This document shows positions 36,801 to 54,942 of a DNA stretch of 64,000 nucleotides, one piece after another (within the stretch, counting starts at the first letter, position 1; every line of letters begins with the position of its first letter). Under the pieces are notes generated by a model that did not search any database, was not told the origin of the DNA, and saw nothing but the letters and a program-made list of their open reading frames with translations. The DNA lies in assembly GCA_903887775.1 (NCBI GenBank), contig CAISRB010000033.1:62001-126000 (forward strand), written 5' to 3'. Origin of the DNA: an uncultured Bacteroidales bacterium (GTDB taxonomy: Bacteria > Bacteroidota > Bacteroidia > Bacteroidales > FEN-979). The translations under genes and the position numbers were made by a program.

Positions 36801-39800
36801 GAGATTACCATACCTGTAACCCTGAAAGCCTCACCGGTAACGTTTTTTGAAGTTGAACCTCTGACGCCTCAATGTATGTCGCCACAATCTGTCCGGTTCC
36901 AGGACAGAACAGTAACTTCTTCCGCCACGGGTCCCATTACGAATTGGGTTTGGGACTTTGCAGACGGAACTGCAACCGTTTCCGGCATTTCAAATCCTTC
37001 CCATGTTTTTATCAATGCAGGGTCCTATGCTGTATCCCTGACCGTAACAACAGCGAATGGCTGTTCCAAAACTTATGTGGCCACCCCACCGGTCGTTGTC
37101 AATCAAAGGCCTGTCGCTGATTTCACTGCAAATACTCCCTGTGAAAACAACCCTACAGTATTTACGAGCAATTCGACACCGAATGCAACTGCAATTACCA
37201 GTTATCTGTGGGAGTTTGGGGATGGAAATACTTCTACCCAGCCTTCCCCGTCCCATACCTATCTGACTTATGGGAATTACAGCGTAAAGTTAACAGTGAC
37301 AAACTCGAACGGATGTATTCATGATACCACGAAACAGGTTTCTGTATATCCTAAGCCGAACGCATTATTTTCATTTTCACCGAGCAGCTGCATCGGGATT
37401 CCGGTTGATTTTGTTGATCATTCGACTGTCCCGGGTGCCATGTCAAGCTATATTCAGACATGGCAATGGGATTTTGGCGATGGTTCCTCTCAACCGCCAA
37501 TCAATTATCCTGCAAACCCGAATATTTCCCATACGTTTTCAGGAACAGTTGCGATACATACTGTTAGGCTTACTGTAACTACATCTGCAGGGTGTATAAG
37601 TTTCATTGACAAGGTTGTGACCAGTATTCCTTCACCCATTTCAAACTTCTCATTCTCCACGACAAATTGCACAGCACAGCCGGTTCAGTTCACTGATCAT
37701 TCACAGGAAAATGGTGGCGGGCCTATCACGGCATGGCAATGGAATTTCGGCGACCCCGCATCAGGCTCAAACACATCTACCCTTCAGAACCCTACCCATA
37801 GTTTCACTGCTGCTGCCACCTATACAGTACATCTTAAAGTCTTCAATGCCAGCGGATGTTATAAGGACAGCAGCACGACCATTACGATCGCAGCAAATCC
37901 GACTGCTGACTTTACAGCAACCAACGTATGCAAAAGCAGCCCGACAGTATTCACAGGGAGCGCAAGCGGAGGAACAATTGTTACATGGTCATGGAATTTC
38001 GGTGACGGAGGCACTTCAAACGCCCAGAGTCCTTCCTATACTTATGCCAATTCAGGTTCATACAACGTAATGTTAACAGTTACAACCGCTGCAGGCTGCC
38101 AGGGTGTCGTCAGCAAATCAGTTCAGGTTTATGGGTCGCCGGTTTCTCAGTTCAGCTTCTCTTCTACGGCATGTTCAAGCGACTCTGTTCAATTTACCGA
38201 CCTCTCGACCACTCCGCATGGTAGTATCCACGATTGGTATTGGGATTTCGGAGACGGTGGAACGTCTCATATTGTTTTCCCGGGAAATCAGAATGTAAAG
38301 CATAAATATGCAAACGGCGGGTCTTTTAATGTGAAACTTTCAATCACTACAACCGACAGTTGTAAAAATGAAGTAACCATTCCGGTTACAGTAGAGGCTA
38401 AGCCAATAGCCAACTATAGCAATTCATCAGGTGCCTGTGCCCTGATGTCAAATCAGTTTACCGACTTATCCCAGGCGAACGGGGGGACCCCTATTATTTC
38501 CTGGTTATGGAACTTTGGTGATCCTGCCTCAGGTTCTTACAACACCTCAACACTGAAAAACCCCACTCACGTCTTCACGGCCGGAATGATATTTTCGGTC
38601 AAGCTGATAATTTACAATGCGACCGGATGCCTCGATTCATTGAGAAAAGACATTACTGTCAATGCTGCGCCCGTGCCAATATTCAGCTTCGATACAGCCT
38701 GTGTAAACAGCCCAACGCAGTTCATCGACGCTTCAACTTCTCCAACCGGCATAGTCAATGCATGGTTATGGGATTTTGGTGATCCTTCCTCGGGCACTAA
38801 TAATTCCTCAACCCTGCCAAATCCGGTGCATTATTATTCAGTTCCGGGTAACTACATGGTTAAACTTTTTGTAACAAATACAAATAACTGTTCAAAGGAC
38901 ACAACTAAACAGATTTCAGTCAGTCCGAAACCCCAGGCCTTATTTCAGTATTCAGCCGCATGTGCCCAGGATTCAACTTCATTCACCGATCTTTCCATCG
39001 CAGCCAACAGCCAGGTAGTGGCATGGTCATGGAATTTTGGCGACGGAGGTACCGACACAATAAAGAATCCGAAACATAAATATGCTGCTTCAGGAACATA
39101 TAGTGTGAAAGAGGTTATAACCAATCTGAGCGGATGTAAAGACTCGGTTACCATATCAGTGCTTGTCCATGCCAAACCGCTTGCAGCTTTCCAGTATACA
39201 AGCAAATTCTGCCCGGCAGGACAGGTTACTTTCCAGGATCTGTCGACTGCTGCCGGTGCGGCTATTACAGACCACCTCTGGATCTTCGAACCAGGAGCTA
39301 CTTCTACCGTGCCAAACCCCGTCTATACATTTTCGGCTACCGGCGGCACCTACTCAGTGACACTTATCGTTATGGATAACTTCGGATGCAAGGACACCAT
39401 TATTAGCAGCGTCAGCGTTAAACCCGCTTTCAAATTTACCTATACCAACGATATGGTCTGCCTCGGGTATCCGACACATTTCACCCCGGTTAATAATAAC
39501 CCCGGCCAGGACTCTTTATATTCACCAAGATGGGATTTTGGTGACCCGAATTCCGGCCCTGCCAATTATTCAAACCTTTACAATGCTTCTCATATTTTTA
39601 CTGCGCCCGGATCATTTTATGTGAAACTGAAGGTATTTAATTCCGATAACTGCCTTGATAGTGTATTCAAAATAGTGCAGGTATACGCCCCTCCCAAACC
39701 GCATTTCAGATATACCGCGCCCCAATGTGACAGCGCTCTGTATTTTGTTGATACCACCAGTAATTTCGGCACGGGTACGATAGCAAGCTGGGAATGGCAT

Positions 39801-41312
39801 TTCGGCGACAACTCTGCTCCTTTTATCATTCCGGCGCCGGGTCCGGGCAGTACTTCGCATATTTACGCTCAGCCCGGTGATTACAAGGTTACACTTATCA
39901 TTACGAATACAAAAGGATGTGTCGACAGCATCTCCCAGGGTGTAACCAGGCTTCCGTGTATCAAGGCAGCCTACGATTACCCTGATACCCTCAGGTGTAT
40001 GAATTATATGGTGACATTCCATGATACTTCTGTTCCGACAAGCAGAATCAACGAATGGAAATGGACATGGGATGACGGGACCGATACAACCTATAGTAAA
40101 TACGCACAATATGTCAAACACAGGTTCACGAGCCCCGGAACTTTCAATGTGAAGTTGTGGATCAGGACCCTCGTTAATTCGGTGATCATACGTGACAGTA
40201 ACATTCAGCAGGTAATTATCCATCCGACTCCAAAGACCTTATTTTCGGATGTACCCGTATGTTTACACCAGGCGGCAATCTTCAGGGATACATCTTTGAC
40301 GAACGGAGAAGCAGTTTCTGTATGGAAGTGGAACTTCGGTGAACCTTCTTCGGGCCCCGGCAATACATCCACTCTGAGAAATCCAACACATACCTATGCA
40401 ACCAGGGATACGTTTAATGTTCAACTGGTTGTCATGAATAAATTCGGATGTAAAGACTCCCTGACAAAACCACTGAGGATCTATGGGTTACCGGTTGCCA
40501 GCTTCAGCTATCTTGCAGCTTGTACCGGAGATCCGACATTCTTCAGGGATTCATCCGCGATATCTGATACCACTATTGGTTTCTGGAGGTGGAACTTTGG
40601 TGACCCGACAGTTCTTAAAGATACTTCAGTTCTGAGGGATCCGATCTTCAAATACAAATCAGGCGGGGATTACCTTGTCCGCCTCATCGTTAGGGACCAT
40701 TTCGGATGTAAGGATACTATTGATTCGACTGTTACGGTGCATGTGACACCGGTTTCTGCTTTCACCCTGATCAACGGGTATGACGGAACTCCGGGCAAAG
40801 TCAAACTGAATAACCAGTCAAAAGGAGCTTCTGCCTATTCCTGGGATTTCGGTAATGGAAAAACAAGCAATGATACGAATCCCATTGCTACATATTCCGA
40901 GGATGGCACCTATTCGATAAGACTGGTTTCAATGAATGACTTCGGTTGTACCGATACAACTTATTATGAATATAAAATCCTGTTCCGCGGGCTTTTTGTG
41001 CCGAATGCATTTGCACCTAACAGCGGAAATTTGGCGGTTAGGTTGTTCAAACCTGTGGGTATAAATCTGAAGACTTATCATATCATGGTATTCGATGCAG
41101 GGGGGCATCTGATGTGGGAATCCAACAAGCTCGACAACAACGGTGCACCTCTTGAAGGATGGGATGGTACCGTTAATGGTGTGCTCATGCCTCAGGGGAA
41201 CTATTTCTGGAAGGCAACTGCAACCTTTATTGACGACTCCTCCTGGACCGGTTCGGACACAGGGGTGAAAGGTGGTGGCGGAACTATGGGAACAGTAATT
41301 TTATTAAGATAA
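33855..41312 (+). CDS. Giant PKD-repeat surface protein with T9SS type B sorting domain
   Basis: A 2485-residue exported protein. The signal peptide (about 1-25) is followed by roughly 22 PKD-type beta-sandwich repeats, each about 85-110 residues and carrying a core like WxWNFGDGG, WLWDFGDPSS or WEWFWGDGS. The C-terminal 85 residues form a gliding-motility-type (type B) sorting domain: FVPNAFAPNSGN, YHIMVFDAGGHLMWES, then GWDGTVNGVLMPQGNYFWKA. This suggests export by the type IX system and retention at the cell surface as an adhesin or matrix protein. The next gene encodes a PorP/SprF protein, the standard partner. Repeat sequences have diverged, so recent expansion is unlikely. Confidence 0.92.
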   Translation: MRNLTLRLILVSGFLLLLRTSLLAINCPDTQPVVKGPDVVRAGQTVTYMTNDIPGHTYNWTLSGGGSIAGSNTSNQVIVNWGNTPTSATLSITEKNSAVAGCTGISAQKTITIQPLLNAYFYYEFDPTHGCFYNEITATATGDGNFPPVDPTISFTWKWRLYDPLNVLPWNTTGIVPGSGPNIIKMTLPAVPKKTYEVDLQVSKTISGSVYTDEIVDYVYVDPDKYKPTAVISSVTPPFPNCLYNQYTCSASGSSPSNFPDPSITIKYCYWYVNDVLVRTKANGIDTMKYTFPAPGSYTIKLIIENSYSCKSNAITSNVTITNTVPVANFTAEAACVDIPTVFNDFSLAVVPSGTLTKWEWNWGDGTPNTIYGPAAIPPAPKPATIEHTYTEVGIKHITLQVTNSNGCISPVFTQDVNVIPSPIANFEYDFTCANTLITFRDRSITNGGSDIISRQWNFGDGNWTTNPTYTFTTTGPQTVTLKVTNANYCTDTKVDNSIIIHPIPDFTPDPAVGFTWANTTLPLEIQFSDYTDPLQVGNNLQWDFGDGKYGFGKNPVHNYGNPGEYNVQMTCTSTFGCTNFYQAMIKMAPPIPSFYFDPSEACLDKEVRVVPNPVAGTIAKEEWWYQDEGYTPDPSLPSPYTVKHSWVIPVVMPAADTHFFKSYGIKQVNHVITLSGTPPTIVAYNDYVTIHDTAKAEFTWNNINQPPVGGPPLPGCKGQEVFFFDRSTPPVGSPTAQIVGWLWEFDDPASSGSNYAYTQDCSHIFMDPGKTTFHVKLTVTSSDNNCESFTIKTITIKPSPLVNFIVNGNSTANVGCMSTPDIPAVVNFAYDPTVIPDPTQIKDWLWEFGDNISQSGPFLSSTSHAYLTSGWKTVKLTITDADGCRNTISKSVYINPAPIASFSFTPDACEGQAVQFDDHSQAGGDLNAYVVKWEWFWGDGSLPSPEVITNSQTVSHTFPIVPGMYTWPVKLRVTTNYGCISEITIPVTLKASPVTFFEVEPLTPQCMSPQSVRFQDRTVTSSATGPITNWVWDFADGTATVSGISNPSHVFINAGSYAVSLTVTTANGCSKTYVATPPVVVNQRPVADFTANTPCENNPTVFTSNSTPNATAITSYLWEFGDGNTSTQPSPSHTYLTYGNYSVKLTVTNSNGCIHDTTKQVSVYPKPNALFSFSPSSCIGIPVDFVDHSTVPGAMSSYIQTWQWDFGDGSSQPPINYPANPNISHTFSGTVAIHTVRLTVTTSAGCISFIDKVVTSIPSPISNFSFSTTNCTAQPVQFTDHSQENGGGPITAWQWNFGDPASGSNTSTLQNPTHSFTAAATYTVHLKVFNASGCYKDSSTTITIAANPTADFTATNVCKSSPTVFTGSASGGTIVTWSWNFGDGGTSNAQSPSYTYANSGSYNVMLTVTTAAGCQGVVSKSVQVYGSPVSQFSFSSTACSSDSVQFTDLSTTPHGSIHDWYWDFGDGGTSHIVFPGNQNVKHKYANGGSFNVKLSITTTDSCKNEVTIPVTVEAKPIANYSNSSGACALMSNQFTDLSQANGGTPIISWLWNFGDPASGSYNTSTLKNPTHVFTAGMIFSVKLIIYNATGCLDSLRKDITVNAAPVPIFSFDTACVNSPTQFIDASTSPTGIVNAWLWDFGDPSSGTNNSSTLPNPVHYYSVPGNYMVKLFVTNTNNCSKDTTKQISVSPKPQALFQYSAACAQDSTSFTDLSIAANSQVVAWSWNFGDGGTDTIKNPKHKYAASGTYSVKEVITNLSGCKDSVTISVLVHAKPLAAFQYTSKFCPAGQVTFQDLSTAAGAAITDHLWIFEPGATSTVPNPVYTFSATGGTYSVTLIVMDNFGCKDTIISSVSVKPAFKFTYTNDMVCLGYPTHFTPVNNNPGQDSLYSPRWDFGDPNSGPANYSNLYNASHIFTAPGSFYVKLKVFNSDNCLDSVFKIVQVYAPPKPHFRYTAPQCDSALYFVDTTSNFGTGTIASWEWHFGDNSAPFIIPAPGPGSTSHIYAQPGDYKVTLIITNTKGCVDSISQGVTRLPCIKAAYDYPDTLRCMNYMVTFHDTSVPTSRINEWKWTWDDGTDTTYSKYAQYVKHRFTSPGTFNVKLWIRTLVNSVIIRDSNIQQVIIHPTPKTLFSDVPVCLHQAAIFRDTSLTNGEAVSVWKWNFGEPSSGPGNTSTLRNPTHTYATRDTFNVQLVVMNKFGCKDSLTKPLRIYGLPVASFSYLAACTGDPTFFRDSSAISDTTIGFWRWNFGDPTVLKDTSVLRDPIFKYKSGGDYLVRLIVRDHFGCKDTIDSTVTVHVTPVSAFTLINGYDGTPGKVKLNNQSKGASAYSWDFGNGKTSNDTNPIATYSEDGTYSIRLVSMNDFGCTDTTYYEYKILFRGLFVPNAFAPNSGNLAVRLFKPVGINLKTYHIMVFDAGGHLMWESNKLDNNGAPLEGWDGTVNGVLMPQGNYFWKATATFIDDSSWTGSDTGVKGGGGTMGTVILLR

Positions 41313-41333
41313 TACAATCTAACATATAGCTCG

Positions 41334-42443
41334 ATGAAAAAGCTCTCATGTATTCTTTGCCTGCTGGTGCTGATGTGGATCTTACCTCACACATCTGTCC
41401 GGGGACAGGACATGAATTACACTCAGTATTTCAGCACACCACTTTATGTGAATCCTGCGTTCACAGGCATCAATACAGGGATTCGCGCAAGGTTTTTATT
41501 CAGGGATCAATGGCCTTCTGCTCCTATTCCTTACAAATCATATTATTTTTCGGCTGACCTTGGAGATCGCGGATTGCCCGGAGCCGGGGGATTGGGGATA
41601 GTCGTCGAGTCTGATAATCCGGGAGCCGGACTTATAAACAACCTGAATGCTGCTCTTACAATTGGTGTCCGTATTCCTATTACAGGATTTTTAGCTGCCC
41701 AGGTAGGTATTAAAGCGGGCATTATGCAAAGGAGGATTAACTATGACGACCTGGTATTTACAAGTAACTTTGACGCAAGGTACGGTAATATTTATCAGAG
41801 CGGCTTCACCGATTTTAATGCAAACAAGAGAGTGGTCCCGGATTTCGGTGCAGGCGGTTTATTTCAATTTTCTTCCAATGAAGGAAACATAACAGGTGAT
41901 CTTGGTTTTGCAGTGGATCACATTTTTCAACCGGATGTATCATTCCTTTCTGTCGGGACTTCCCAATACCCAAGGAAATGGGTTGGACACCTTGACCTGG
42001 TATTTTCAACCGGCCCCGCCGGAAGTTCGAATGCGATGTATGTCAGTTCGTCGGAGCCACTGAAGATAAATGTGGGCGCATTATACATGAACCAGTCAAA
42101 CCTGAACTCCCTGGAGTTTGGTTTAAATCTTTTAAAGTACAACATTTACCTGGGCTGCTGGTTCAAGAGCACGTTAACCGGTACTGTCAATAATTCCTGT
42201 GCAGTATTAGCTGGTTATAAATTCAATTTTTACGATAATATGAGCATTAAATTCATGTACTCATATGACATCCAGGTGAGTGGTGCACTTCAGGGCACAG
42301 GTGGGGCACATGAGATCAGCCTCATTCTTGAATTCGATAAATTGACGATCTTCGGAGGCGGGGGAGGTGGCGGATCCATTCCCGGCAGCGGAGGGAGCGG
42401 CAGGAAATATGGCGGACCTATGGAATGTCCGAGTTTCTATTAA
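41334..42443 (+). CDS. PorP/SprF-family T9SS outer-membrane protein
   Basis: A 369-residue outer-membrane beta-barrel protein. A signal peptide (about 1-24) is followed by the family opening MNYTQYFSTPLYVNPAFTGI and then RFLFRDQWPSAPIPYKSYYF. The C-terminus has a Gly-rich stretch (IFGGGGGGGSIPGSGGSG). Members attach cargo with type B signals to the cell surface. It lies 21 bp after the giant PKD gene, so the two are probably transcribed together. A bidirectional terminator follows. Confidence 0.93.
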   Translation: MKKLSCILCLLVLMWILPHTSVRGQDMNYTQYFSTPLYVNPAFTGINTGIRARFLFRDQWPSAPIPYKSYYFSADLGDRGLPGAGGLGIVVESDNPGAGLINNLNAALTIGVRIPITGFLAAQVGIKAGIMQRRINYDDLVFTSNFDARYGNIYQSGFTDFNANKRVVPDFGAGGLFQFSSNEGNITGDLGFAVDHIFQPDVSFLSVGTSQYPRKWVGHLDLVFSTGPAGSSNAMYVSSSEPLKINVGALYMNQSNLNSLEFGLNLLKYNIYLGCWFKSTLTGTVNNSCAVLAGYKFNFYDNMSIKFMYSYDIQVSGALQGTGGAHEISLILEFDKLTIFGGGGGGGSIPGSGGSGRKYGGPMECPSFY

Positions 42444-42490: not shown

Positions 42491-43753
42491 TTACATATTT
42501 GCGATGATCTCTGTCCCGAATTCAGAACATTTAAGTTTAATCGCCCCCTCCATAAGGCGCTCAAAATCATAGGTTACCCTCTTTTTTGCAATGGAACCTT
42601 CGAGGCCTTTAAGGATAAGGGTTCCGGCTTCTTTCCATCCCATGTATTCGAGCATCATCACACCTGAAAGGATCAAAGAGCCCGGGTTTACCTGGTCTTT
42701 ATTGGCGTATTTCGGAGCAGTGCCATGGGTAGCTTCAAACACGGCATGCCCGGTCTCATAATTGATATTGGCCCCCGGGGCAATGCCGATTCCGCCAACT
42801 ATTGCCGCCAGTGCATCGGAGATGTAATCCCCGTTCAGGTTCAGTGTGGCAATCACAGAATATTCGGCAGGCCGGGTCAGGATCTGTTGCAGGAAGGCAT
42901 CGGCGATTACATCCTTGATGATTATACGGCCTTCGGCAATGGCCTTTTTCTGTGCTTCTTCTGCTGCCTGCTCACCTTCCTTCTCTTTGATATTATCATA
43001 CCTGGTCCAGGTAAAGACCTTTGCATTGAATTCCTTTTCAGCCAGGGCATAACCCCAGTTCTTAAACTGTCCCTCGGTGTATTTCATAATATTCCCTTTA
43101 TGGACCAGGGTGACAGAAGGAAGTTTCTGATCGACGGCATATTTTATTGCAGCCCTGACGAGACGTTCGGTCCCATCCTTCGATACAGGCTTAATCCCGA
43201 TAGAGGAAGATTCAGGAAACCGTATCTTTTTAACGCCCATTTCCCCGATCAGGAAATTGATCACTTTCTTTACTTCAGGAGTCCCGGCCATCCATTCGAT
43301 CCCGGCATAGATATCTTCAGAATTTTCACGGAAGATGACCATGTTGGTCAGCTCTGGTTTCTTCACCGGTGAAGGAACACCCTTGAAGTATTTCACAGGA
43401 CGAAGGCAAACATAAAGATCAAGAATCTGCCTTAAGGCCACGTTCAGGGAACGTATCCCTCCCCCCACCGGGGTGGTCAGGGGGCCTTTTATGGCAACAA
43501 GATATGTATTGATCTCATCCAGGGTTAACTGTGGCAACCATTCAGCTGTTTGCCTGAAGGCTTTTTCACCTGCAAGGACTTCTTTCCAGCTTATTTTTCT
43601 TTTCCCCCCATATGCTTTTTCAACGGCTGCATCAAAAACTCTCACACTGGCATTCCAGATATCGGGCCCGGTACCATCTCCTTCAATAAACGGAATTACC
43701 GGATTATCCGGAACAATCAACCGGCCATTCAATAATGTTATCTTTTCTCCCAT
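42491..43753 (-). CDS. icd: Isocitrate dehydrogenase (NADP+)
   Basis: A 420-residue citric-acid-cycle enzyme, close in length to Escherichia coli Icd. Signature parts are [25 protein letters not shown] (with the serine phosphorylated by AceK in enteric bacteria), [18 protein letters not shown] and [17 protein letters not shown] with GIAPGANIN. No aceK is near. Its start is preceded by a degenerate AACGC repeat array, beyond which lies the acyl-adenylating/GNAT fusion gene on the same strand. Confidence 0.96.
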
Positions 43754-43868: not shown

Positions 43869-46800
43869 TCAGATGATTTTAACCAGGGCCCCCCATTTCT
43901 TGTCGACCTCGAAGAAATGCTTCATATAGTAATTGCCGAAAAGAAAGTGCGCCTTGATGACCTTAATACCGTAGGCTGACATGCTGACAAAGAAATTGGC
44001 TATCATGGCCGCGGCTATCCCTTTTCCCTGAAGCGCCGAAGTTACAACGATTCCGTCAAAAAGTACGGTTGCTTCATCCAGGAAATGCCAGGTAAGCCCT
44101 CCGATGATCTTTCCCGTTTCATCCGCTACAACATGCTGGTGGTCTGTTTTACTGATCTCCTTCGGATAATTTTCCCTGAAGAACATCTGGTATAACTGGC
44201 CTGTCTCCCGGGGTTCAACCGGCTCATACTGGGTGTAATGCTTCCTGTCCAGGTCGTAAATGTCGAAGCGCACAAGAATATGTTCCTTTAAATGTTCCCC
44301 TATTTTAAGGAGGTCGATATGCTGATCGGTCTGCAGCCTTGGGAAGACCATATGGCTGAAGATGTTTTTGTCTTCTTCTTCTGTTAATGCAGACTGCAAA
44401 TCCGAAAGTTCGATAAGCTGGATCGGAAGTGTGTCTTGTTTTTCCTGCATCGTCTCAATCAGGCAGTCAAATGATCGCAGGGCCTCAGTGCCGGAATTGA
44501 TGAAGTAAGTATGCCTGTAAAAGGAATACCGTACAAGATCGGGCCATGAATTAAGCCTGAACAATTCCATGAGTTCGACTATTGTTTGCTCTTTGGCTGC
44601 CGCGGTAGTGAGGGGGTTCATGCGATACCAGTCGATATACTGGTCAATGGCAGCGTATAATGACAAAGGCAGGTGGAAGAGCCTGATATTTTCGGCAAGA
44701 TATTTATTAAGGTGATGTTTCATGTTTGTCTGATCATGGCAGATGACCTTGTGCTTTTTCAGTTCCTCTTTTAAGCTTGTAAGGAATTCAATGGCTTCCT
44801 GCTTTCCCAGGGCTTCAATGCATGCATCGAAGATCCAGTTTATATCTATCTGTTTTTTTACCCAGGGATAAAGGGCCGTTGTTTTACAATAGTAATCCTG
44901 GACCATGGGGTTGACAAGCGAAAGCGGGCTCCTGTATTCAGACCAGCCTGTAAGGGTAAGGATCACTGCGGATTCACGGAAATCCATTTCCGGTATCGAA
45001 ATGTTGGTAGGGGTGATGGCTCCGGGAACGATTTGGTAACCACTATGGTGCCATGCCTTAAACACTGCAACCAGGGACCGTATAAAGACTTTTTTCCAGG
45101 CATTCGGTTTAACGAAACCTGATGAACGGTGAATTTCTGCAAATTCCCTGATCCTGTCCCATGCTGTGAGCCCTCCGATATACTGGGTACTGAGAAGACC
45201 GAGATTGGGCCTGCTGCTGCCCATGAGGGAAGCAACTGCCGCACCGTAGGGAAAGCCTGCAAGAGAGGCCTGCCAGTAAAACGTGTCAGGGTTTGGCTTG
45301 TATTCCGGGTTGTTGCTGATCACGATATGCAGGTCAAAGTGTTTTCCCGCTTTCGTGTTTACGCTAAGCCTGTAATGCTTGAATTCCTTAAAAGCGAGAA
45401 GGCGAAGTATCCAAATCCCCCCCGGGGGGACATCCTTTAGGTCAAAATCCCACTCATTAAACGTCAGGACGATACTTTCTTCAAGAAATTTCGTTGTTTG
45501 GAAAATTTTTAAAATTCTTTCCTTGTCTGTATTCTGAATGCCGTGTTCAAACACCAGTTTCGACTTCCAGGTTGAAAGAGGGTATTTCGGTCCCCTTCCT
45601 TCCATATGGTTCTCAAAAACCTGGGCCAGCCTGTAAAAATAATCTTCTGCTTTTTTCGATAACCAGGGGTCCTGGCGGTGAAGGATCCATCTCGACAATT
45701 CAGCCCGTACAGGTACGTAGAAATCGAGATGCCTGAGAGCGAAATTGTAAAGCATCCTGAGCATGTCAGCGAACTGATTGCGCATTTTAACAGGCGCTGG
45801 CCAGGAAGAATGCGTACGGTAAAAATAAAGCCTTTGTTTCAGGGCATCAAGCCGGTGTTTGCCGATATTGGATGAAGCAATCGCCTGAATTGACTTCTCA
45901 TTCAGAAAAGACAAACCCGACTCCAGAAACATGGGCAGGTTAGGGATGGCTTCAGGCTGTGGGGCATAAAGCAGGATAGTCCTGTATGCCATACAGCGGA
46001 CTTCTTCCAGGGGATGGAATGCAAGCGCTTCCAACCTTAGCCTCATCACTTCGGCAAGCCTGTATTCAGATTCGATAAAGATCTCCCCGATCTTTCCGAT
46101 GGCAGTGATGGCATCGGATTCCGATCCGTACAATGCCTGGCAAAGAAGAATATTCGCCCTGGCAACAAACTGATCGCGTATATTGCCTGAGGCTTTGCAT
46201 TCCTCTTTATATACATGGCCAGGCTTAGCAATATAGATGATTTCGCTGATCCCTTTCACGGGAACATCCCATCCTTCTTTCACGGGGCAGAATGATATCA
46301 GGGAAGGGTTTCCCGTCCAGAGTTTCGGGGAGCGCGTAAATACCCCCAGATCAAGAATGTCGCTGTTGAAACTATAAATAAGGTCGCCAATGATCCATCC
46401 CCCCGCTTTACTTTTTTTAATATCGAGAGTTTGTTTTGTCCTTGTGTTTTCAAGACGATACTTGCTTAAAATAATATCGGATTCAAGTATGCCAAGGTCC
46501 CTGTAAAACCATTTCGGAATAGAAATCGTGATATTAACTCCTTTTATCAGAACTACATTGCTTTGGTACAAAGAGTCTATGAGCTTTGCAAAACTGCTTT
46601 CTATGGCTTTCCTGTTGAATGACCCTTTCGGAGTTAATTCGCCTTTTTCAGCGCTGAACTCCCGTTCGAGAAGAGTAAAATTGACCACCCTCTCATAGGG
46701 TGCCACATCTTTATTGGCCGACATGACGATCTGGTGGAAATATTCCCTGAGGTTGTCCCCTTCAAGCGAAGAGAATAATGAATCAACTTTGTCGGGAACA

Positions 46801-48518
46801 ATAAGCAGCACATTATACGGACGGTTATCGCCAACCACAAAAGTGCTTTTAATCCCGGGTACATTAAGGAATTTCTTTTCGATGACCTGGGGGGCGACGG
46901 TTTGTCCCCTGTTGTTTTTATAAATATCCTTTACCCGGTCAACGATTTCATGATATCCGTCTTTATTGATGACAAAAACATCACCTGTTTTCAGCCAGAA
47001 GTCTTCCTTTTCAGAAACCGGGTAAGCGATAATGCCTGATGGAGGAGCATCTTCAAGGTACCTGCCGATATAATGCCCGCTGATCTCGAGCTCAGAGTTC
47101 TCGTTCAGCCTGGTGACCACACCCGGCAAAGGAATGCCGACTTTGTAATCCTGGTAGCTGAAAGGAGGTGTCATCGTTATACCTCCCGTGGCTTCCGTCA
47201 TGCCAAATCCGCTGCATAAAGCTATGCCGTGTTCGTTAAAAAAGCGGAAAACTTTGGGATCGAGATACCCCGCGGCGCTAAGTCCCCATTTAAGGCGGTT
47301 GCCTGCGACCTCTTCAATGGCCCTGGCCCTGAGTTCCGGACTCCCGATCCCACCTATCTTCTCCTGACATTTTTCATATAATTCATGCCAGCGTAAAGGA
47401 ATGCTGATAAAACCGCTTGGGTTGATCCCGGGGAAAAGGGCGAAAAGCGTTTCAGCCGAGTTGTTCCCGGCAAAAACATAGGTCCCATGCCAGTATATCG
47501 CCCCGGTCATCTCAAGGTAACGGCCAAAAGTGTGGAACAATGGAAGGTAACAGAGGAATGTTTCATTGCCGACTTCCGGGAGGGCTGCAGCACGTGCAAA
47601 ACGCTTCGATACGATATTGTAGACAGAGAAAGAGACTCCCTTTGGAAGGCCCGTGCTGCCCGATGTGAACATTGTTGTTGCAACAGCATTGCCCGGCTTT
47701 ACCGGCCTGGAAGAGAGAATGTGAACGGTCTCTGAACGGGAGACCTTTTTACATTCTTCCTGAAGGTAAGCAACAGAAGAAGACTTCTTTGAGCCCGGGC
47801 TCATTGTGAAGATCCTGAAATTCTTTGCGGTCATCCCGTTAACCTTTTCAAGGACCGCTATTCTCTGGGGTGTATCTGCAACTGCTATATTTACAGAAAG
47901 CTTATCAAACAAGGCAGCGAGGATTTCAGCGCTAAAATGTGTGCTGAAAGGTGAAATGAATATGCCGGAACAAAGACAGGCCAGGTCAACACAGGCGCCT
48001 TCAACACAGTTCTCGGTATAAAGCGCCACCCTGGGTTCTTCATTCACTGCCAGGCAGAATACTGCTGAAATCTCAGCCATATGGCGATAGATCTGCTCAT
48101 AGGTCCATTCCACAGTTGGTGATACCGACATGTCTTTAAAAAGCAACTGCTGCGGATGTTCATCAACTCTTTGTTTCATCAGGTCATTGAATGAATACTG
48201 AGTGTTCCTGAGAATCGTGAAAACCATTTCAGCCCAGCGGTTTCTCGAGGCTGCATCAAGGTTTCTCAGGAAGCGGGATTTCCCGGTTTCATTCAGGAAT
48301 TCAAACCAGGTTTCGCGGGAAACGATGCCTGGGACCTCAATATTTCCCTGATGTTTTCCTGAGGTTTTTCGTTTATTATGTCCCGGCTCCAGTTTCTCAA
48401 GGGGAGCTCCCGCCTCATCCAGCAGGGTTGAGGCTAATGCCTGCCGTTGCTTATCTTTTGCATTTTTCCAGGAAGTCAGTAGTTCTGCCAGCGTCATCAT
48501 CAGATTATTCAGAATCAT
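43869..48518 (-). CDS. Acyl-CoA synthetase-like / GNAT acyltransferase fusion protein
   Basis: A 1549-residue multidomain protein. After a leader of about 100 residues, residues 110-645 form an AMP-binding domain with FTSGSTGLPKG at 284-294, CSGFGMTEATG at 435-445, WLKTGD at 508-513 and a terminal LTPKGSFNRK, the position of the catalytic Lys in long-chain acyl-CoA synthetases. Residues 650-1400 match nothing I know; 770-870 look like helical HEAT-type repeats. Residues 1400-1549 form a GNAT domain with VVTSALQGKGIAAAMIANFF. One protein may activate an acid and transfer the acyl group. It sits between icd and a divergent acn-gltA pair. The exact substrate is unknown. Confidence 0.8.
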   Translation of the reverse strand: MILNNLMMTLAELLTSWKNAKDKQRQALASTLLDEAGAPLEKLEPGHNKRKTSGKHQGNIEVPGIVSRETWFEFLNETGKSRFLRNLDAASRNRWAEMVFTILRNTQYSFNDLMKQRVDEHPQQLLFKDMSVSPTVEWTYEQIYRHMAEISAVFCLAVNEEPRVALYTENCVEGACVDLACLCSGIFISPFSTHFSAEILAALFDKLSVNIAVADTPQRIAVLEKVNGMTAKNFRIFTMSPGSKKSSSVAYLQEECKKVSRSETVHILSSRPVKPGNAVATTMFTSGSTGLPKGVSFSVYNIVSKRFARAAALPEVGNETFLCYLPLFHTFGRYLEMTGAIYWHGTYVFAGNNSAETLFALFPGINPSGFISIPLRWHELYEKCQEKIGGIGSPELRARAIEEVAGNRLKWGLSAAGYLDPKVFRFFNEHGIALCSGFGMTEATGGITMTPPFSYQDYKVGIPLPGVVTRLNENSELEISGHYIGRYLEDAPPSGIIAYPVSEKEDFWLKTGDVFVINKDGYHEIVDRVKDIYKNNRGQTVAPQVIEKKFLNVPGIKSTFVVGDNRPYNVLLIVPDKVDSLFSSLEGDNLREYFHQIVMSANKDVAPYERVVNFTLLEREFSAEKGELTPKGSFNRKAIESSFAKLIDSLYQSNVVLIKGVNITISIPKWFYRDLGILESDIILSKYRLENTRTKQTLDIKKSKAGGWIIGDLIYSFNSDILDLGVFTRSPKLWTGNPSLISFCPVKEGWDVPVKGISEIIYIAKPGHVYKEECKASGNIRDQFVARANILLCQALYGSESDAITAIGKIGEIFIESEYRLAEVMRLRLEALAFHPLEEVRCMAYRTILLYAPQPEAIPNLPMFLESGLSFLNEKSIQAIASSNIGKHRLDALKQRLYFYRTHSSWPAPVKMRNQFADMLRMLYNFALRHLDFYVPVRAELSRWILHRQDPWLSKKAEDYFYRLAQVFENHMEGRGPKYPLSTWKSKLVFEHGIQNTDKERILKIFQTTKFLEESIVLTFNEWDFDLKDVPPGGIWILRLLAFKEFKHYRLSVNTKAGKHFDLHIVISNNPEYKPNPDTFYWQASLAGFPYGAAVASLMGSSRPNLGLLSTQYIGGLTAWDRIREFAEIHRSSGFVKPNAWKKVFIRSLVAVFKAWHHSGYQIVPGAITPTNISIPEMDFRESAVILTLTGWSEYRSPLSLVNPMVQDYYCKTTALYPWVKKQIDINWIFDACIEALGKQEAIEFLTSLKEELKKHKVICHDQTNMKHHLNKYLAENIRLFHLPLSLYAAIDQYIDWYRMNPLTTAAAKEQTIVELMELFRLNSWPDLVRYSFYRHTYFINSGTEALRSFDCLIETMQEKQDTLPIQLIELSDLQSALTEEEDKNIFSHMVFPRLQTDQHIDLLKIGEHLKEHILVRFDIYDLDRKHYTQYEPVEPRETGQLYQMFFRENYPKEISKTDHQHVVADETGKIIGGLTWHFLDEATVLFDGIVVTSALQGKGIAAAMIANFFVSMSAYGIKVIKAHFLFGNYYMKHFFEVDKKWGALVKII

Positions 48519-48531
48519 TAAAGGAAACTTG

Positions 48532-48539
48532 CAAATTTA
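48532..48539 (-). promoter_or_regulatory. -7 element (TAAATTTG) of the AMP-binding/GNAT gene
   Basis: TAAATTTG on the minus strand fits TAnnTTTG and lies 13 bases before the ATG at 48518. It is within 15 bp of the opposing -7 box for aconitase. Confidence 0.5.
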
Positions 48540-48553
48540 TCGATTCAAATTGT

Positions 48554-48561
48554 TAATTTTG
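48554..48561 (+). promoter_or_regulatory. -7 element (TAATTTTG) of aconitase
   Basis: TAATTTTG fits TAnnTTTG and lies 26 bases before the ATG at 48588. TTG at 48529-48531 is a -33 candidate with a 22-base spacer; it overlaps the divergent promoter. Confidence 0.5.
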
Positions 48562-48587
48562 AATTCGAATAAAAGATATTTTATACC

Positions 48588-50846
48588 ATGTTACTTGAAT
48601 TAGATAAAATTGAAGCCATCTATCAGAAGATCAGTACATCTGCGGATAAAGCTAAAAAGATCCTCGCTCATCCTTTAACGCTTACCGAGAAGATTTTGTA
48701 CGGGCATTTGTTTGACGAAATTCCAGGTTCCCCATACAAGCGCGGAACAGATTATGTGAACTTCCGCATTGACCGTGTTGCCATGCAGGATGCAACGGCA
48801 CAGATGGCATTGCTTCAGTTCATGACAGCCGGAAGGCAATCTTCAGCGGTTCCGGCAACGGTTCATTGCGATCACCTTATTCTGGCAAAAGAAGGGGTGA
48901 GCCCCGACCTTGCTGCCGCTTTATCACAAAATGCCGAAGTATACAACTTCCTGCAGTCAGTCTCGGCAAAATACGGCATCGGGTTCTGGAAACCCGGCGC
49001 AGGGATTATACACCAGGTAGTGTTTGAGAATTATGCATTTCCCGGCCAGATGATGATAGGAACGGATTCCCATACACCCAATGCCGGCGGACTAGGAATG
49101 CTTGCCATCGGGGTCGGAGGCGCTGATGCAGTGGACGTCATGTCAAACATTCCCCTGGAACTTAAGATGCCAAAGATCTTGGGCGTTGAGCTCACAGGTA
49201 AATTAAACGGCTGGGTTTCTGCAAAGGATGTTATCCTGGCACTTTCAGGCATATTAACGGTTAAAGGCGGCACCGGGTTTATTATTGAATACTTCGGAGA
49301 CGGAGCTGAATCCCTTTCCTGTACGGGCAAAGGGACTATCTGTAATATGGGGGCTGAAGTCGGGGCAACCTGTTCGGTCTTTGCATACGATGCAAGCATG
49401 AAGCGGTATCTTGAAGCTACCGGCCGAAAAGCTGTGGCCGAAAAGGCTGATCAGTATGCAGCTTTTCTGAAAGCCGATCCCGAAGTTACCAGGGACCCTT
49501 CAAAGTATTATGACCAGGTTATCCATATCAACCTCTCCGAACTGGAACCTTATGTAAACGGCCCGTTCACACCCGATCTTGCAAACCCCGTTTCGGCCCT
49601 CCCTGCTTTTTTGAAAGAAAATGATTACAGCGATACACTCGAGGTGGGACTGATAGGTTCCTGCACCAACTCTTCCTATGAAGACCTTTCAAGGGCTGCT
49701 TTCATCGCACGCCAGGCCAAAGCAAAGAAGCTGAATGTAAAAGCCGGGTTTATAATAACACCAGGTTCTGAACAGATCAGGTTTACAGCCGAAAGGGACG
49801 GGTTGCTCGAAGCCTTTGACGAAATAGGGGGGGTGATCATGGCCAATGCATGTGGCCCCTGCATCGGCCAATGGTCAAGGAAGATGGATGATCCTGAAAG
49901 AAAAAATTCCATCGTGACCTCATTCAACAGGAACTTTACCAAACGCAACGATGGCAATGCAGGTACCCATACTTTCATTGCCTCTCCCGAGATGGTCACA
50001 GCAATGGCTCTTGCAGGAAGGCTTTCATTCAATCCATTAAAAGATAGTATTGTGAATGCTGATGGCCGGGAGGTTAAACTCGACGAGCCCCGGGGGTACG
50101 AGTTGCCGCCAAAAGGTTTCGATGTGAGGGATCCCGGTTTCATCCCGCCTCCGGCTGATCCGAAAAATATAAGGGTGGAAGTGAAACCCGATTCCGGCAG
50201 GCTTCAGCTGCTCGAACCCTTTGAGGTATGGAATGGTAAAGACATCACCGGAATGCGTCTGCTCATCAAGGCGAAAGGCAAATGCACTACCGACCATATT
50301 TCCATGGCAGGACCCTGGCTTAAATACCGGGGACATCTTGACAAGATATCCGACAACCTGCTTATGGGTGCTGTCAATGCCTTCAACGGCAAGACCAATT
50401 CGGTAAAGAACGGGATTACCGGTGAATTTGCAGAAGTCTCGAAAACCGCGAGGTATTACAAAGCCAATCATATCCCTTCACTGGTGGTTGGTGATGAAAA
50501 TTATGGCGAAGGTTCATCGCGTGAGCATGCCGCTATGGAGCCAAGGTTTCTTGGAGTGAGGGTAGTCCTGGTGAGGTCATTCGCGAGGATACATGAAACC
50601 AATCTTAAAAAGCAGGGCATTCTGGCGTTGACATTCGCCAATCCGGCTGATTACGACAAAATCCAGGAAGATGACGCCTTTGATCTTTCAGGGCTTCAAA
50701 CATTTGAACCGGGAAAACCACTGAAACTGAAGATACACCATGCCGGAGGAAGTACGGAAGACATCCTTCTGAACCATACATACAGCATGCTGCAAATATC
50801 ATGGTTCAAAGCAGGGAGTGCACTTAACTATATGAAAGAAAAATAA
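48588..50846 (+). CDS. acn: Aconitate hydratase (mitochondrial-type)
   Basis: A 752-residue Fe-S enzyme that isomerises citrate to isocitrate. The [4Fe-4S] ligands are in [14 protein letters not shown] (Cys near 358) and [11 protein letters not shown] (Cys near 421 and 424). The C-terminal swivel domain has [20 protein letters not shown]. The N-terminus and length resemble the mitochondrial-type aconitases. It is 31 bp upstream of citrate synthase. Confidence 0.96.
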
Positions 50847-50877: not shown

Positions 50878-52227
50878 ATGGACATGAAGAAATTTATTGC
50901 CGAGCATGCCCCTGAAACGGAAAGCTCATGCACTATTGACGAGCAGCTTTTCAAGCAGTTTGATGTAAAAAGAGGCCTTCGGAATGCAGATCATACGGGC
51001 GTACTTGTAGGACTTACAAGGGTCGGAAGCGTGGTAGGTTACGAAAAAATTGATGGCAAGCTGGTTGCGATCGATGGCAAACTGATCTACCGCGGAATTG
51101 AAATAAGTGACCTGGTTCGCGGCAACCAGGCCGCGAAACGTGCCGGTTTTGATGAAACCGTATTTCTCCTGCTTTTCGGGCATCTCCCAAAAAAGGAAGA
51201 GCTGAAAGTGTTCTCGGAAGGCCTGGCTGAACAAAGGGCCCTGCCCGAGAATTTCAACAGGGATATGATCCTGACCATGAAAGGCAAAGACATCATGAAC
51301 ATGCTTGCCAGGTCTATCCTTGCTTTGTATACACTCGACGAAAATGCGGATGATACCAGCATTCAGAATATCATCAGGCAGTCGGTCAGCCTTATAGCAA
51401 AATTCCCGACCATTGCAGTATATTCCTATCACGCCATGCGCCATCTTATTTATTATGATACACTTACGGTGCGCTATCCGGATAAAAAACTGCACACGGC
51501 CGAGAACTTCCTGTATATGCTCAAGGGGCACGACTATACCCCGCTCGAAGCCGAACTTCTTGATCTTTGCTTAATGCTTCATGCCGAGCATGGAGGCGGC
51601 AACAACTCAACCTTTACCACAAGGGTTGTTAGTTCAAGCGGCACCGATACCTATTCGGCTATTGTCGCTGCCATCGGCTCGCTAAAAGGCCCACTCCATG
51701 GTGGAGCCAACATTGAAGTGATCGACATGATGGACAATATCAAAGCTAATATAAAGAACTGGGGCAACGATGATGAGGTGACCGAATATCTTCGTAAGAT
51801 CCTGAAGAAAGAGGCGTATGACAAGAGTGGAAAGATATACGGATTCGGCCATGCAGTGTACACCGTTTCCGATCCCCGCGCTATCCTCCTGAAAGAGAAA
51901 GCCAGGCTGCTTTCAAAAGAAAAAGGCCGTGAAAAGGAAATGGCCCTGTATGAAGCAATTGAACGAATCGGACCTGAAATCTATTATGAATTCAAAGGCA
52001 CGAAGGAGAAACTGATCTCTCCGAACGTTGATTTTTACAGCGGCTTCGTGTATGAATGTCTCAAGATACCGAAGGAACTCTTTACCCCTCTCTTCGCCAT
52101 TTCACGTATCTCCGGATGGTGTTCTCACCGTCTTGAGGAACTGATCAGCGGGCGCAGGATCATACGACCGGCCTACAAGGCTGTTGAGCCCGACCATAAA
52201 TATATCCCGTTCAGCGAGAGAAAGTAG
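50878..52227 (+). CDS. gltA: Citrate synthase
   Basis: A 449-residue enzyme condensing oxaloacetate and acetyl-CoA. Active-site histidine segments are HAEHGGGNNSTFTTRVV and GPLHGGANIEVIDMM, followed by GFGHAVYTVSDPRA and NVDFYSGFVYECLKIP with the catalytic Asp. The length is slightly above the common 430 residues, through an N-terminal extension. Its end overlaps the convergent SDR gene by 17 bp. With acn and icd it gives the oxidative opening of the citric acid cycle. Confidence 0.95.
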   Translation: MDMKKFIAEHAPETESSCTIDEQLFKQFDVKRGLRNADHTGVLVGLTRVGSVVGYEKIDGKLVAIDGKLIYRGIEISDLVRGNQAAKRAGFDETVFLLLFGHLPKKEELKVFSEGLAEQRALPENFNRDMILTMKGKDIMNMLARSILALYTLDENADDTSIQNIIRQSVSLIAKFPTIAVYSYHAMRHLIYYDTLTVRYPDKKLHTAENFLYMLKGHDYTPLEAELLDLCLMLHAEHGGGNNSTFTTRVVSSSGTDTYSAIVAAIGSLKGPLHGGANIEVIDMMDNIKANIKNWGNDDEVTEYLRKILKKEAYDKSGKIYGFGHAVYTVSDPRAILLKEKARLLSKEKGREKEMALYEAIERIGPEIYYEFKGTKEKLISPNVDFYSGFVYECLKIPKELFTPLFAISRISGWCSHRLEELISGRRIIRPAYKAVEPDHKYIPFSERK

Positions 52228-53059
52228 GGTACATTTTGCGCATGGCCCTGTTCACGAAATACGACGAAAAAGCTGAAGGCAGAATTCTTGAAATAAAAAA
52301 ATAACCCAGGCGGTTTGTAAATCCATCAATACAGACCGCCTTTTTTCCGCACATTTTTATAGCATAAGCTGCCACCCTGAACGGATCAGCCATGGGTATA
52401 TCGCCCTGCGCCCTGCTTTCAAGAAATTTCGGAGTGTTGATGATACCTGCGCAGCAAGTGCTGATACCGATTCTGTAAGGCTTCAGCTCGTAATATAAAG
52501 ATCTGGCAAGGCTTATCAGGAATGCCTTGCTTGCTGCATAAGGGGTTATATAGACCGGCGCCATCAACCCGGCCAGGGATGACATCAGCAGTATTTTACC
52601 CGGTTTTTTCTGATCGCGGAGATACCCGGCAAAAGCATGGACAACCAGCATGGCCGTGCGGTTGTTCACATCAATAAAGCGTTCAAGGTTTTCAGAAGAA
52701 TGGTTGAGAAACGGCTTGACCTCCGACATGGCCGCGCAATACACCAACATCGTGCATCCCCCATCCTGTATCCCGGATCCTTCATTCTGCACCCCGGACC
52801 CCGGATCCCGGAGCCTGGATTCCGGATTCCGGACCGCATCCATGCACACCTTCCATGCATCCTGTTCCCCCAGGTCAACACACAGGCTTGTGACTTTGAT
52901 GCCATATTCCTTAACCACCTTCCTCTCTATCTTCTCCAATGCTTCTCTCCCGCGATCGACCAGTATGAGGTTAAATCCTTGCGCAGCAAGCAATGTAGTG
53001 AAAGCCTCGCCCAATCCCTCAGCCGACCCAGCGATGAGGGCCCATTGCACTTCTTCCAT
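52211..53059 (-). CDS. Short-chain dehydrogenase with an internal heptamer-encoded insert
   Basis: About 282 residues from the ATG at 53059; the open frame to a TTG at 53086 overlaps the divergent promoter. The Rossmann glycine motif is GSAEGLG (11-17), followed by LVYCAAMSE and the active-site YAASKAFLISLARSLYYEL. It lacks the usual NNAG, having YCAAM. Between the second strand region and LVYCAAM there is an unusual stretch of about 26 residues (RNPESRLRDPGSGVQNEGSG and on) encoded by a 7-bp DNA repeat. The substrate is unknown; a mammalian-type 17-beta-HSD/retinol relative is possible. Confidence 0.85.
   Translation of the reverse strand: MEEVQWALIAGSAEGLGEAFTTLLAAQGFNLILVDRGREALEKIERKVVKEYGIKVTSLCVDLGEQDAWKVCMDAVRNPESRLRDPGSGVQNEGSGIQDGGCTMLVYCAAMSEVKPFLNHSSENLERFIDVNNRTAMLVVHAFAGYLRDQKKPGKILLMSSLAGLMAPVYITPYAASKAFLISLARSLYYELKPYRIGISTCCAGIINTPKFLESRAQGDIPMADPFRVAAYAIKMCGKKAVCIDGFTNRLGYFFISRILPSAFSSYFVNRAMRKMYPTFSR
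52758..52834 (-). repeat. Heptamer (ATCCGGG-like) repeat inside the SDR coding sequence
   Basis: On the minus strand, eleven contiguous 7-bp units: GTCCGGA, ATCCGGA, ATCCAGG, CTCCGGG, ATCCGGG, GTCCGGG, GTGCAGA, ATGAAGG, ATCCGGG, ATACAGG, ATGGGGG. The array covers 77 bp, so gain or loss of one unit shifts the frame. Confidence 0.85.
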
Positions 53060-53076
53060 GATATTTCCTAATTTTG
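53044..53076 (+). promoter_or_regulatory. Promoter of the DUF1214-like gene
   Basis: ATTG at 53044-53047, a 21-base spacer and TAATTTTG (53069-53076) fit the Bacteroidota pattern. Transcription would begin near 53082, which excludes the TTG frame start at 53074 and supports the ATG at 53107. Confidence 0.5.
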
Positions 53077-53106
53077 CGGCATGCAATAATACTTAATTTC
53101 CTGCGA

Positions 53107-54291
53107 ATGTCTAAGTTGCTCTTTTTCTTCCTGAACCTGATGAAGTCCTGGCAGTCCTTTATTTTAAAGATGAAAGGCAAGACTGCGGATGACATACACG
53201 GGGACCGGATCATATCGGGTAAGGCCTGGGATGAATTCTGCGATAACCTGAAAGCTGCAGGTGCAGCTCTTAAAATGCCGGGTACACCGCGGGATGCCTT
53301 TAACCAGGCCGAAGGCATCCGGTACCTTAGCCGGCTTACGAGGGGAGGGCTTGAGGCTTTCATAGAATACTGTGATCCTGCATTTCCTGTTTTAAGGCGC
53401 ACGGCCCACGAAACGATCAAGCTCGGAGCCGACAACCCCGATAATTATTATTTCAACGCCCAGATCAGCGGGCAATATGAATACCGGCTTACCGGAAAAA
53501 GGAATACTGTGCATTACTTCGGCCTGTTTACCCAGAACGGGAACTACGGAACCACCGGAGGCATGGCGCCATGCGCAGTCCTCGAACATAATGAAATCCA
53601 ATATGAACATGATGGCAGTTTTGAGGTCATCCTGAGCGTTGAAAAGAAAGGAAAGAACTGGCTTAAAATTGAAAAAACAACCAGTATGCTGATGGTAAGG
53701 CAGACCTTCAACAACCGCTTTACCGAGACTCCTGCCGAGATACAAATTGAAAACCTCGATGGCCGCAGGGCTCCGGTAAATATCACGCCGGCGATGGTTG
53801 ACCAGGGATTGAACACCGCATCGATGTTCGTGGGCGGGGCAGCCCTGCTGTTCTCCCGCTGGGCCAAAGGTTTCAAGGAGCATACCAACAAACTTCCCCT
53901 CTTCGACCCGAAGAAGTCGAACGATGCCGGGGGAGATGCCTCCATCATTTATTACCATTCTTACTGGAAACTTGCCGATGACGAGGCCTTGCTGATTGAA
54001 GTGATGCCTCCCGACTGCGATTCCTGGAATTTCCAGTTGAACAACTATTGGATGGAATCCCTCGATTACCGCTATTTTACAGTATGCATCAACAAGGCCT
54101 CCGCAAAATACGAACCGGATGGCTCGGTAAAAGTGGTGGTTGCTCATTCGGATCCCGGCTTGCCAAACTGGATCAGTACCTGCGGGCATTACGAAGGTAC
54201 CATGCTCTGGCGGTGGTACCGGTTGGAGCCCGGGGCGCAGGCGGTAGAACCATCATGCAGGGTGATCACGCTCCGCCATCCGCAGTCATAA
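53107..54291 (+). CDS. DUF1214-like protein
   Basis: A 394-residue protein without a clear signal peptide; the first helix (SKLLFFFLNLMKSW) is hydrophobic but short. The C-terminal part (about 290-390) has MESLDYRYFTVCINKAS, VAHSDPGLPNWISTCGHYEG and MLWRWYRLEP, the pattern of DUF1214. That domain is frequent in mycobacteria and in lipid- or sterol-metabolising bacteria, with no settled function. It is divergent from one SDR gene and lies near a sulfotransferase and a second SDR. Confidence 0.65.
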   Translation: MSKLLFFFLNLMKSWQSFILKMKGKTADDIHGDRIISGKAWDEFCDNLKAAGAALKMPGTPRDAFNQAEGIRYLSRLTRGGLEAFIEYCDPAFPVLRRTAHETIKLGADNPDNYYFNAQISGQYEYRLTGKRNTVHYFGLFTQNGNYGTTGGMAPCAVLEHNEIQYEHDGSFEVILSVEKKGKNWLKIEKTTSMLMVRQTFNNRFTETPAEIQIENLDGRRAPVNITPAMVDQGLNTASMFVGGAALLFSRWAKGFKEHTNKLPLFDPKKSNDAGGDASIIYYHSYWKLADDEALLIEVMPPDCDSWNFQLNNYWMESLDYRYFTVCINKASAKYEPDGSVKVVVAHSDPGLPNWISTCGHYEGTMLWRWYRLEPGAQAVEPSCRVITLRHPQS

Positions 54292-54300
54292 ACAGAAATT

Positions 54301-54319
54301 ATCTGTAAATTATATAAAA
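54301..54319 (+). promoter_or_regulatory. Putative operator, direct repeat copy 1 (regulator gene)
   Basis: ATCTGTAAATTATATAAAA starts 59 bp before the -7 box of the regulator gene. It matches 18 of 19 bases of a copy at 54924-54942, which has nearly the same spacing to the next gene's -7 box. A weaker match continues for about 20 more bases. Confidence 0.55.
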
Positions 54320-54359
54320 GATAGACAAAAATGTATAATAGCTTTTCATCTCCGGAATT

Positions 54360-54367
54360 TACTTTTG
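54360..54367 (+). promoter_or_regulatory. -7 element (TACTTTTG) of the regulator gene
   Basis: TACTTTTG fits TAnnTTTG. The ATG at 54377 is only nine bases downstream, so the message would be nearly leaderless. Confidence 0.45.
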
Positions 54368-54376
54368 CAGATTAAT

Positions 54377-54919
54377 ATGAAAGTCTATCTAAAAAATATG
54401 GTGTGTGTGCGTTGTAAGCTGGTTGTGCAATCGGAATTGGAAAAACATAACTTTCATGACGTGATGGTCATTGAAGAAGAAATGACCATCAATGATAATA
54501 TTGCCCCCGATAGGCTTGACCAACTTAAAGTATTACTGCACAACCTCGGATTTGAATTAATAAATGACAACGAGAATATATTGATAGAAAAAATCAAAAA
54601 ATCCATTACTGAACTGATATACGATACAGGGGATTCATTGAAGATAAATTTCTCTGACTATATCAGTTCAAAATTAGGATACAATTACCATTATCTCAGT
54701 AACCTTTTTTCGGCCGTACATGGTAATTCTATTGAAAAATATTACATCCGTCAGAAAATTGACAGGGTAAAAGAAATTATCATTAACGAAGATCTTTCCT
54801 TCGGTGAAGTCGCTGACAAAGTGCATTACAGCAGCACATCCCATTTGTCGGCTCAGTTTAAAAAGGAAACAGGGCTTACCCTTTCGCAGTTTAAAGCAAC
54901 CCACAGCAAGCGAAAATAA
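54377..54919 (+). CDS. Small AraC-type regulator with an N-terminal HMA-like domain
   Basis: About 180 residues. The first 65 resemble a heavy-metal-associated (HMA) fold with a CxxC pair: MKVYLKNMVCVRCKLVV, C10 and C13. Residues 75-180 form an AraC-type double helix-turn-helix: YISSKLGYNYHYLSNLFSAV, YYIRQKIDRVKEIIINEDLS, FGEVADKVHYSSTSHLSAQF and KKETGLTLSQFK. It may sense a metal or redox state. It is followed by a secreted protein gene with the same upstream repeat, so autoregulation with control of that neighbour is plausible. Confidence 0.8.
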   Translation: MKVYLKNMVCVRCKLVVQSELEKHNFHDVMVIEEEMTINDNIAPDRLDQLKVLLHNLGFELINDNENILIEKIKKSITELIYDTGDSLKINFSDYISSKLGYNYHYLSNLFSAVHGNSIEKYYIRQKIDRVKEIIINEDLSFGEVADKVHYSSTSHLSAQFKKETGLTLSQFKATHSKRK

Positions 54920-54923
54920 GCTA

Positions 54924-54942
54924 ATCTGTAAATCATATAAAA
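54924..54942 (+). promoter_or_regulatory. Putative operator, direct repeat copy 2 (secreted protein gene)
   Basis: ATCTGTAAATCATATAAAA starts 60 bp before the -7 box of the gene at 55031. It differs at one base from copy 1 at 54301-54319. Confidence 0.55.

Follow-up and report, generated by a model that had tools for sequence, protein, structure and literature searches.

Five architectural types of bacterial GNAT protein acetyltransferases have been distinguished in a review: types I and II carry NDP-forming synthetase domains, type III small ligand domains, type IV none, and type V consists of tandem GNATs (PMC8556138). In Pat-type enzymes the acyl-CoA-synthetase-like domain serves as a sensor, and in PatZ this domain is NDP-forming and catalytically inactive (PMC8556138). 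A different pairing occurs in Bacillus, where the GNAT AcuA is reported to acetylate the AMP-forming acetyl-CoA synthetase AcsA, encoded adjacent to it (PMC13121692, PMC11255334). Neither an AMP-forming synthetase nor a kinase fold occurs in any of the five review types. Here we describe a protein that combines such a synthetase with a predicted kinase fold, encoded in a 64,000-nucleotide stretch of Bacteroidales DNA (the window) next to citric-acid-cycle genes. Its architecture is described in no title or abstract found in our literature searches, and no experiment on it was found in the literature searched.

Like Pat/PatZ of E. coli and Salmonella, the fusion protein ends in a GNAT domain that is preceded by a large module related to acyl-CoA synthetases. 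It differs from PatZ in that its synthetase is of the AMP-forming (ANL) class with intact motifs, and in the helical repeats and pseudokinase inserted between synthetase and GNAT. With AcsA-AcuA it shares the pairing of an AMP-forming acyl-CoA synthetase with a GNAT, whereas the Bacillus proteins are reported to come from separate genes with no pseudokinase and with acu neighbours rather than citrate synthase.

A single reading frame among citric-acid-cycle genes

The fusion gene (43869..48518, minus strand) is one uninterrupted open reading frame of 1549 residues in the window ORF list. That such a chain is real rather than a gene-calling accident was borne out by its relatives: congeners share 80-84% identity with the window protein from end to end and other members of the order 48-64%, while in other phyla the identity is 35-46% across the C-terminal 900 residues. 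The position noted for the gene, between a same-strand icd and a divergent acn-gltA pair, was also confirmed by NCBIfam and Pfam matches. The icd gene for NADP-isocitrate dehydrogenase (42491..43753, minus strand; TIGR00183/NF005425) lies 118 bp downstream, while acn for a mitochondrial-type aconitase (48588..50846, plus strand; TIGR01340) is divergent and separated from the fusion gene by an intergenic region of 69 bp (48519..48587, from ORF coordinates), with similar spacing in the clade. Behind acn follows gltA, encoding a citrate synthase of the PRK14032 type (50878..52227, plus strand; NF010635, 663 bits).

On the gltA side, 52214-58222 of the window holds two short-chain-dehydrogenase-like genes (52214, 57122) along with genes for a sulfotransferase-family and a DUF1214 protein, and these recur beside the cluster in about 8-16 relatives. 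Downstream of icd, the Bacteroidales clade keeps a gene for a secreted repeat protein of 2485 aa and, after it, a gene judged by eye to be PorP/SprF-like (type IX secretion; 33855-42443).

Scanning one genome per species, we confirmed 131 stretches and kept 80; nearly all of the kept matches span the C-terminal 900 residues. The kept matches came from Bacteroidales, Chlorobiota, Kapabacteria/Ignavibacteria, Zixibacteria, Gemmatimonadota, Krumholzibacteriota, Deltaproteobacteria and Acidobacteria, and the co-linear family was found in Bacteroidota, Chlorobiota/Ignavibacteria, Zixibacteria, Krumholzibacteriota, Gemmatimonadota, Myxococcota-type and Acidobacteriota genomes. In phylum samples the family occurred in 37/80 Krumholzibacteriota, 21/247 Acidobacteriota and 6/200 Gemmatimonadota genomes, and in 5/237 of the phylum to which locus L128 belongs; an even sample of the window's own class (395 genomes) contained none beyond the window's own genome. 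A distant group scored about 120-350 bits, with ORFs mostly of 1550-1780 aa and an identical domain order. AMP-binding, AMP-binding_C_3 and GNAT domains were present together in 27/27 diverse members scanned. One metagenome-assembled genome titled Alphaproteobacteria (L071) has a sequence and neighbours like those of the Bacteroidales clade and is probably mislabelled. Two full-length copies occur in one genome, G029 (L027; also L074 and L093); most other genomes searched have one. A phage origin was rejected, with no relatives in viral contigs, as was membership in a defence system, with no PADLOC match.

An AMP-forming synthetase with a shifted A10 lysine

The predicted acyl-CoA synthetase-like domain was recovered by two Pfam matches. 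The ANL large domain (residues 117-476; 47091..48170, minus strand; AMP-binding, 7.9e-41) contains the P-loop TSGSTGLPKG together with LPLFHTFGR and FGMTEATGG, and the small domain (residues 537-653; 46560..46910, minus strand; AMP-binding_C_3, 4.4e-13) carries the A10 loop GELTPKGSFNRK. Across 120 proteins, T285, K293, H329, E442, D513, R528, K530, K631 and R636 were invariant wherever the column was present. These residues and the Pfam matches place the domain in the ANL superfamily by its P-loop, A5, A7 and A8 motifs. Its core motifs are common to ANL acyl-CoA synthetases and carboxylic acid reductases, and its closest solved relatives by sequence are the latter. Unlike such enzymes, the fusion has no reductase or carrier domain that we could find (a domain scan of the window protein and 27 family members detected no carrier-protein domain) and adds a pseudokinase and a GNAT.

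A further departure from ANL enzymes is the A10 loop, which reads K-x-[ST]: the usual lysine position is Ser/Thr (S633), and an invariant lysine, K631 (120/120 proteins), sits two residues earlier. We considered whether the serine marks a dead ANL domain and dropped this explanation, because ordinary free-standing Bacteroidota synthetases of about 550 aa from the same order have this K-x-S pattern too, and the shift therefore does not point to inactivity.

A GNAT domain with its acyl-CoA loop kept

The C-terminal GNAT domain (residues 1401-1549; 43872..44318, minus strand), with the CoA loop LQGKGIA, D1488 and Y1530/Y1531, was matched by Pfam Acetyltransf_1 (residues 1441-1537, 1.4e-6, window protein) and by a GCN5 profile (4.6e-7). 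Foldseek matched its predicted model to PatZ (9it0, prob 1.00, 168 columns) and to SACOL1063. Fold and an R/Q-x-x-G-x-G/A loop together identify a member of the GNAT superfamily. Position 1488 is D/E in 112/119 proteins and the CoA-loop Gly1500 is kept in 115/119, while residues 1530-1531 are mostly Tyr/Phe. At the start of the loop the window protein has Gln and 16/16 distant members have Arg; in the core family this Q/R position is variable, with K, H, L and A occurring. Since the acyl-CoA loop is kept, the GNAT lacking an acyl-CoA site that would have told against the original prediction was not what we found.

The middle region folds as helical repeats and a pseudokinase in predicted models

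About 750 residues between synthetase and GNAT had been called unassignable. By sequence this stood, with no Pfam match at residues 654-1440 of the window protein; by predicted structure it did not, the models giving a small beta-rich part followed by helical repeats and then a kinase fold. The AlphaFold models, built from 77 and 66 sequences, had pLDDT values of 86.8 and, for the latter, a submodel, 90.8. They place a small beta-rich domain at residues 650-759 (46242..46571, minus strand), to which no type could be assigned from its strands, followed by a HEAT-like helical-repeat region at residues 783-974 (45597..46172, minus strand). Helical repeats had been anticipated in the middle, and one relative gives a HEAT_2 match (3e-4). 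Next come the kinase fold at residues about 981-1255 (44754..45578, minus strand) and a further helical region at 1266-1391 (44346..44723, minus strand).

With the first model, the top Foldseek match was VPS34 (4.6e-5). With the submodel searched against the PDB, the best 50 matches listed were all kinase-fold proteins (a phosphotransferase, protein kinases and pseudokinases), and Bud32 was matched with a TMt of 0.64 and an rmsd of 4.8. The model shows the two-lobed kinase topology; sequence profiles found no kinase in the middle region, so the call rests on predicted structure. A faint hint of a kinase catalytic loop noticed earlier, HHSGYQIVPGAITPTNIS, proved to sit at that very place in the predicted fold. 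The catalytic-loop equivalent YQIVPGAITPTN (residues 1161-1172; 45003..45038, minus strand) follows a core-family pattern xPGxxxPxN, in which P-G and N1172 are kept and the Asp is lost. The fusion thus shares its fold and, in the core family, the catalytic-loop Asn with Bud32/PRPK and other kinase-fold proteins. Unlike Bud32/PRPK-type kinases, it shows no conserved Asp at the DFG place throughout the family and no clear lysine, judged by eye, at the VAIK place. The HRD Asp is absent in the window protein and is not the rule in the core family, but is D in 9/16 distant members. The residue set of an active protein kinase (VAIK Lys, HRD Asp, DFG Asp) is therefore lacking, and the domain is, judged by its motifs, a dead kinase; the Asp in distant members, combined with the lost DFG Asp, indicates a pseudokinase with a probable kinase ancestor. 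A Fic-domain hint (profile E 0.035) was treated as chance.

Citrate synthase is the recurrent neighbour across lineages

Of about 30 loci in the Bacteroidales clade, 29 have icd directly next to the fusion gene and 28 have acn divergent from it, with gltA behind acn; icd is mostly 18-226 bp and acn usually 50-190 bp from the fusion gene. Outside this clade, genes for eukaryote-like citrate synthases of the PRK09569 type, about 25-29% identical to the window gltA and non-orthologous to it, lie 115-1954 bp from the fusion in five loci (L083, L091, L095, L101, L114) and in three orientations, accompanied by a eukaryote-like icd in three of the five.

In the distant group, 6/17 genomes had gltA no more than 3 kb from the fusion match (0.03 expected under random placement) and 10/17 had it within 35 kb (0.31 expected), although the relatedness of these genomes makes the tail probabilities for linkage too small. 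Most of them have a single citrate synthase. Citrate synthase was the most recurrent neighbour family in this group, the next best reaching 3 loci. On a FastTree tree the linked state appeared in about four separate parts, with at least 8 changes of state. Neighbourhood ORFs were called mechanically as the longest ORFs, and because this missed at least one gltA (in G514, found by family search), ORF-based linkage counts are minimum values; they are further blurred by contig ends and possibly chimeric MAGs.

Linkage as the synteny of one clade only was rejected, since non-orthologous gltA recurs. A general linkage to icd and acn was unsupported outside the Bacteroidales clade, except for icd in the L083/L095/L114 group and L119. 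The proposed citric-acid-cycle connection accordingly held with non-orthologous genes in unrelated lineages, but the partner across lineages is citrate synthase and not icd/acn. Homologs free of any such link, which the original prediction had named as evidence against itself, were largely not the picture obtained: many are linked, yet many lineages show none. We saw no linkage in core-family Krumholzibacteriota, in several Acidobacteriota or in many divergent Bacteroidota, several of the contigs being short.

Several other neighbourhoods were recorded. In the Acidobacteriota subclade L140-L147 (e.g. L147:11657-19899) the fusion is convergent with an adjacent gene of the class I fumarase family. 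Behind it come genes for DUF4387, AtuA-like, methylaspartate ammonia-lyase, mutase E chain and MutL proteins, which together probably form a cluster for the glutamate (methylaspartate) pathway. In Krumholzibacteriota (L152-L162) it often follows a response-regulator gene and a gene for a 464-aa sodium-symporter-like membrane protein, judged by eye. In G622 the citrate synthase gene is in two pieces 340 kb apart (G622:C1:3487704 and 3826459), reflecting either an assembly error or a rearrangement breaking inside gltA beside the fusion gene.

A possible self-charging N-acyltransferase of central metabolism

We tentatively favor a model in which the fusion is a self-charging N-acyltransferase of central metabolism with citrate synthase as its likeliest target or partner, although we hold it as somewhat short of an even chance. 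Reasoning from the intact motifs, we infer that the ANL domain would adenylate a carboxylic acid and convert it to an acyl-CoA, from which the C-terminal GNAT would move the acyl group to an amine. The helical repeats and dead kinase fold may act as a docking or sensing module that brings in the target or a regulatory ligand. Gene context suggests citrate synthase as the target or controlled partner, and in the Bacteroidales clade control might extend to the whole citrate-to-2-oxoglutarate branch (GltA, Acn, Icd). Such a mode would be analogous to that of Pat/PatZ, except that the AMP-forming synthetase is unrelated to theirs and apparently active. The constant architecture in 27/27 members, the invariant ANL motifs, the kept GNAT residues, the resemblance of the GNAT to GCN5, PatZ and SACOL1063, the kinase fold and the gltA linkage support an N-acyltransferase, as do the fumarase-family and methylaspartate-pathway genes near the fusion in one Acidobacteriota subclade. 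The lineages without linkage, the non-standard A10 lysine and the variable CoA-loop Q/R position count against it, and linkage alone does not show that neighbours are modified.

GNATs often acylate small molecules, and both catalytic parts look intact by their motifs, which would suffice for both forming an acyl group and passing it on. The fusion could thus be a biosynthetic enzyme whose GNAT joins the activated acid to a small amine, yielding an N-acyl amino acid, a lipid or similar, with the dead kinase being structural and the citric-acid-cycle neighbours present because citrate, 2-oxoglutarate or glutamate feeds into the product. The fumarase-family and methylaspartate-pathway genes of the Acidobacteriota subclade would fit such dicarboxylic-acid chemistry. 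We consider this explanation rather unlikely, because the fusion is mostly a stand-alone gene with no recurrent biosynthetic operon, no carrier-protein domain was found by the domain scan, 750 residues make a large scaffold for acylating a small molecule, and the sole recurrent partner across distant lineages is citrate synthase.

The Ser/Thr at the canonical A10 lysine position, the sensor use of a synthetase-like domain in Pat-type GNATs (PMC8556138) and the reported acetylation of the adjacently encoded AMP-forming synthetase AcsA by AcuA (PMC13121692, PMC11255334) would also suit a regulatory sensor, in which the synthetase-like domain mainly senses an acid, an acyl-CoA or AMP/ATP and the GNAT modifies its own chain or a few targets, as a one-chain feedback unit resembling AcsA-AcuA. 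The other catalytic ANL residues are invariant, however, K-x-S also occurs in free-standing synthetases of the order, and the citrate synthase neighbour stays unexplained unless it is a target as well; the odds thus run clearly against a sensor. That the linkage is incidental hitch-hiking by a protein with an unrelated function is highly improbable, for although linkage is missing in Krumholzibacteriota and others and the Bacteroidales cluster is inherited as a block, non-orthologous citrate synthases recur in changed orientations and separate lineages far above expectation.

Extending the self-charging acyltransferase model, the fusion might constitute a sixth architectural type of bacterial GNAT, in which one chain makes an acyl-CoA, docks an enzyme on a dead kinase and acylates it, so controlling citrate synthase in several phyla; taken as a whole, this scheme is possible but doubtful. 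If true, it may represent an unstudied switch at the entry to the citric-acid cycle, for which genome linkage points to the first target for testing. The protein would thus offer a direct test of whether bacteria modify a central enzyme with an enzyme-made, channelled acyl-CoA.
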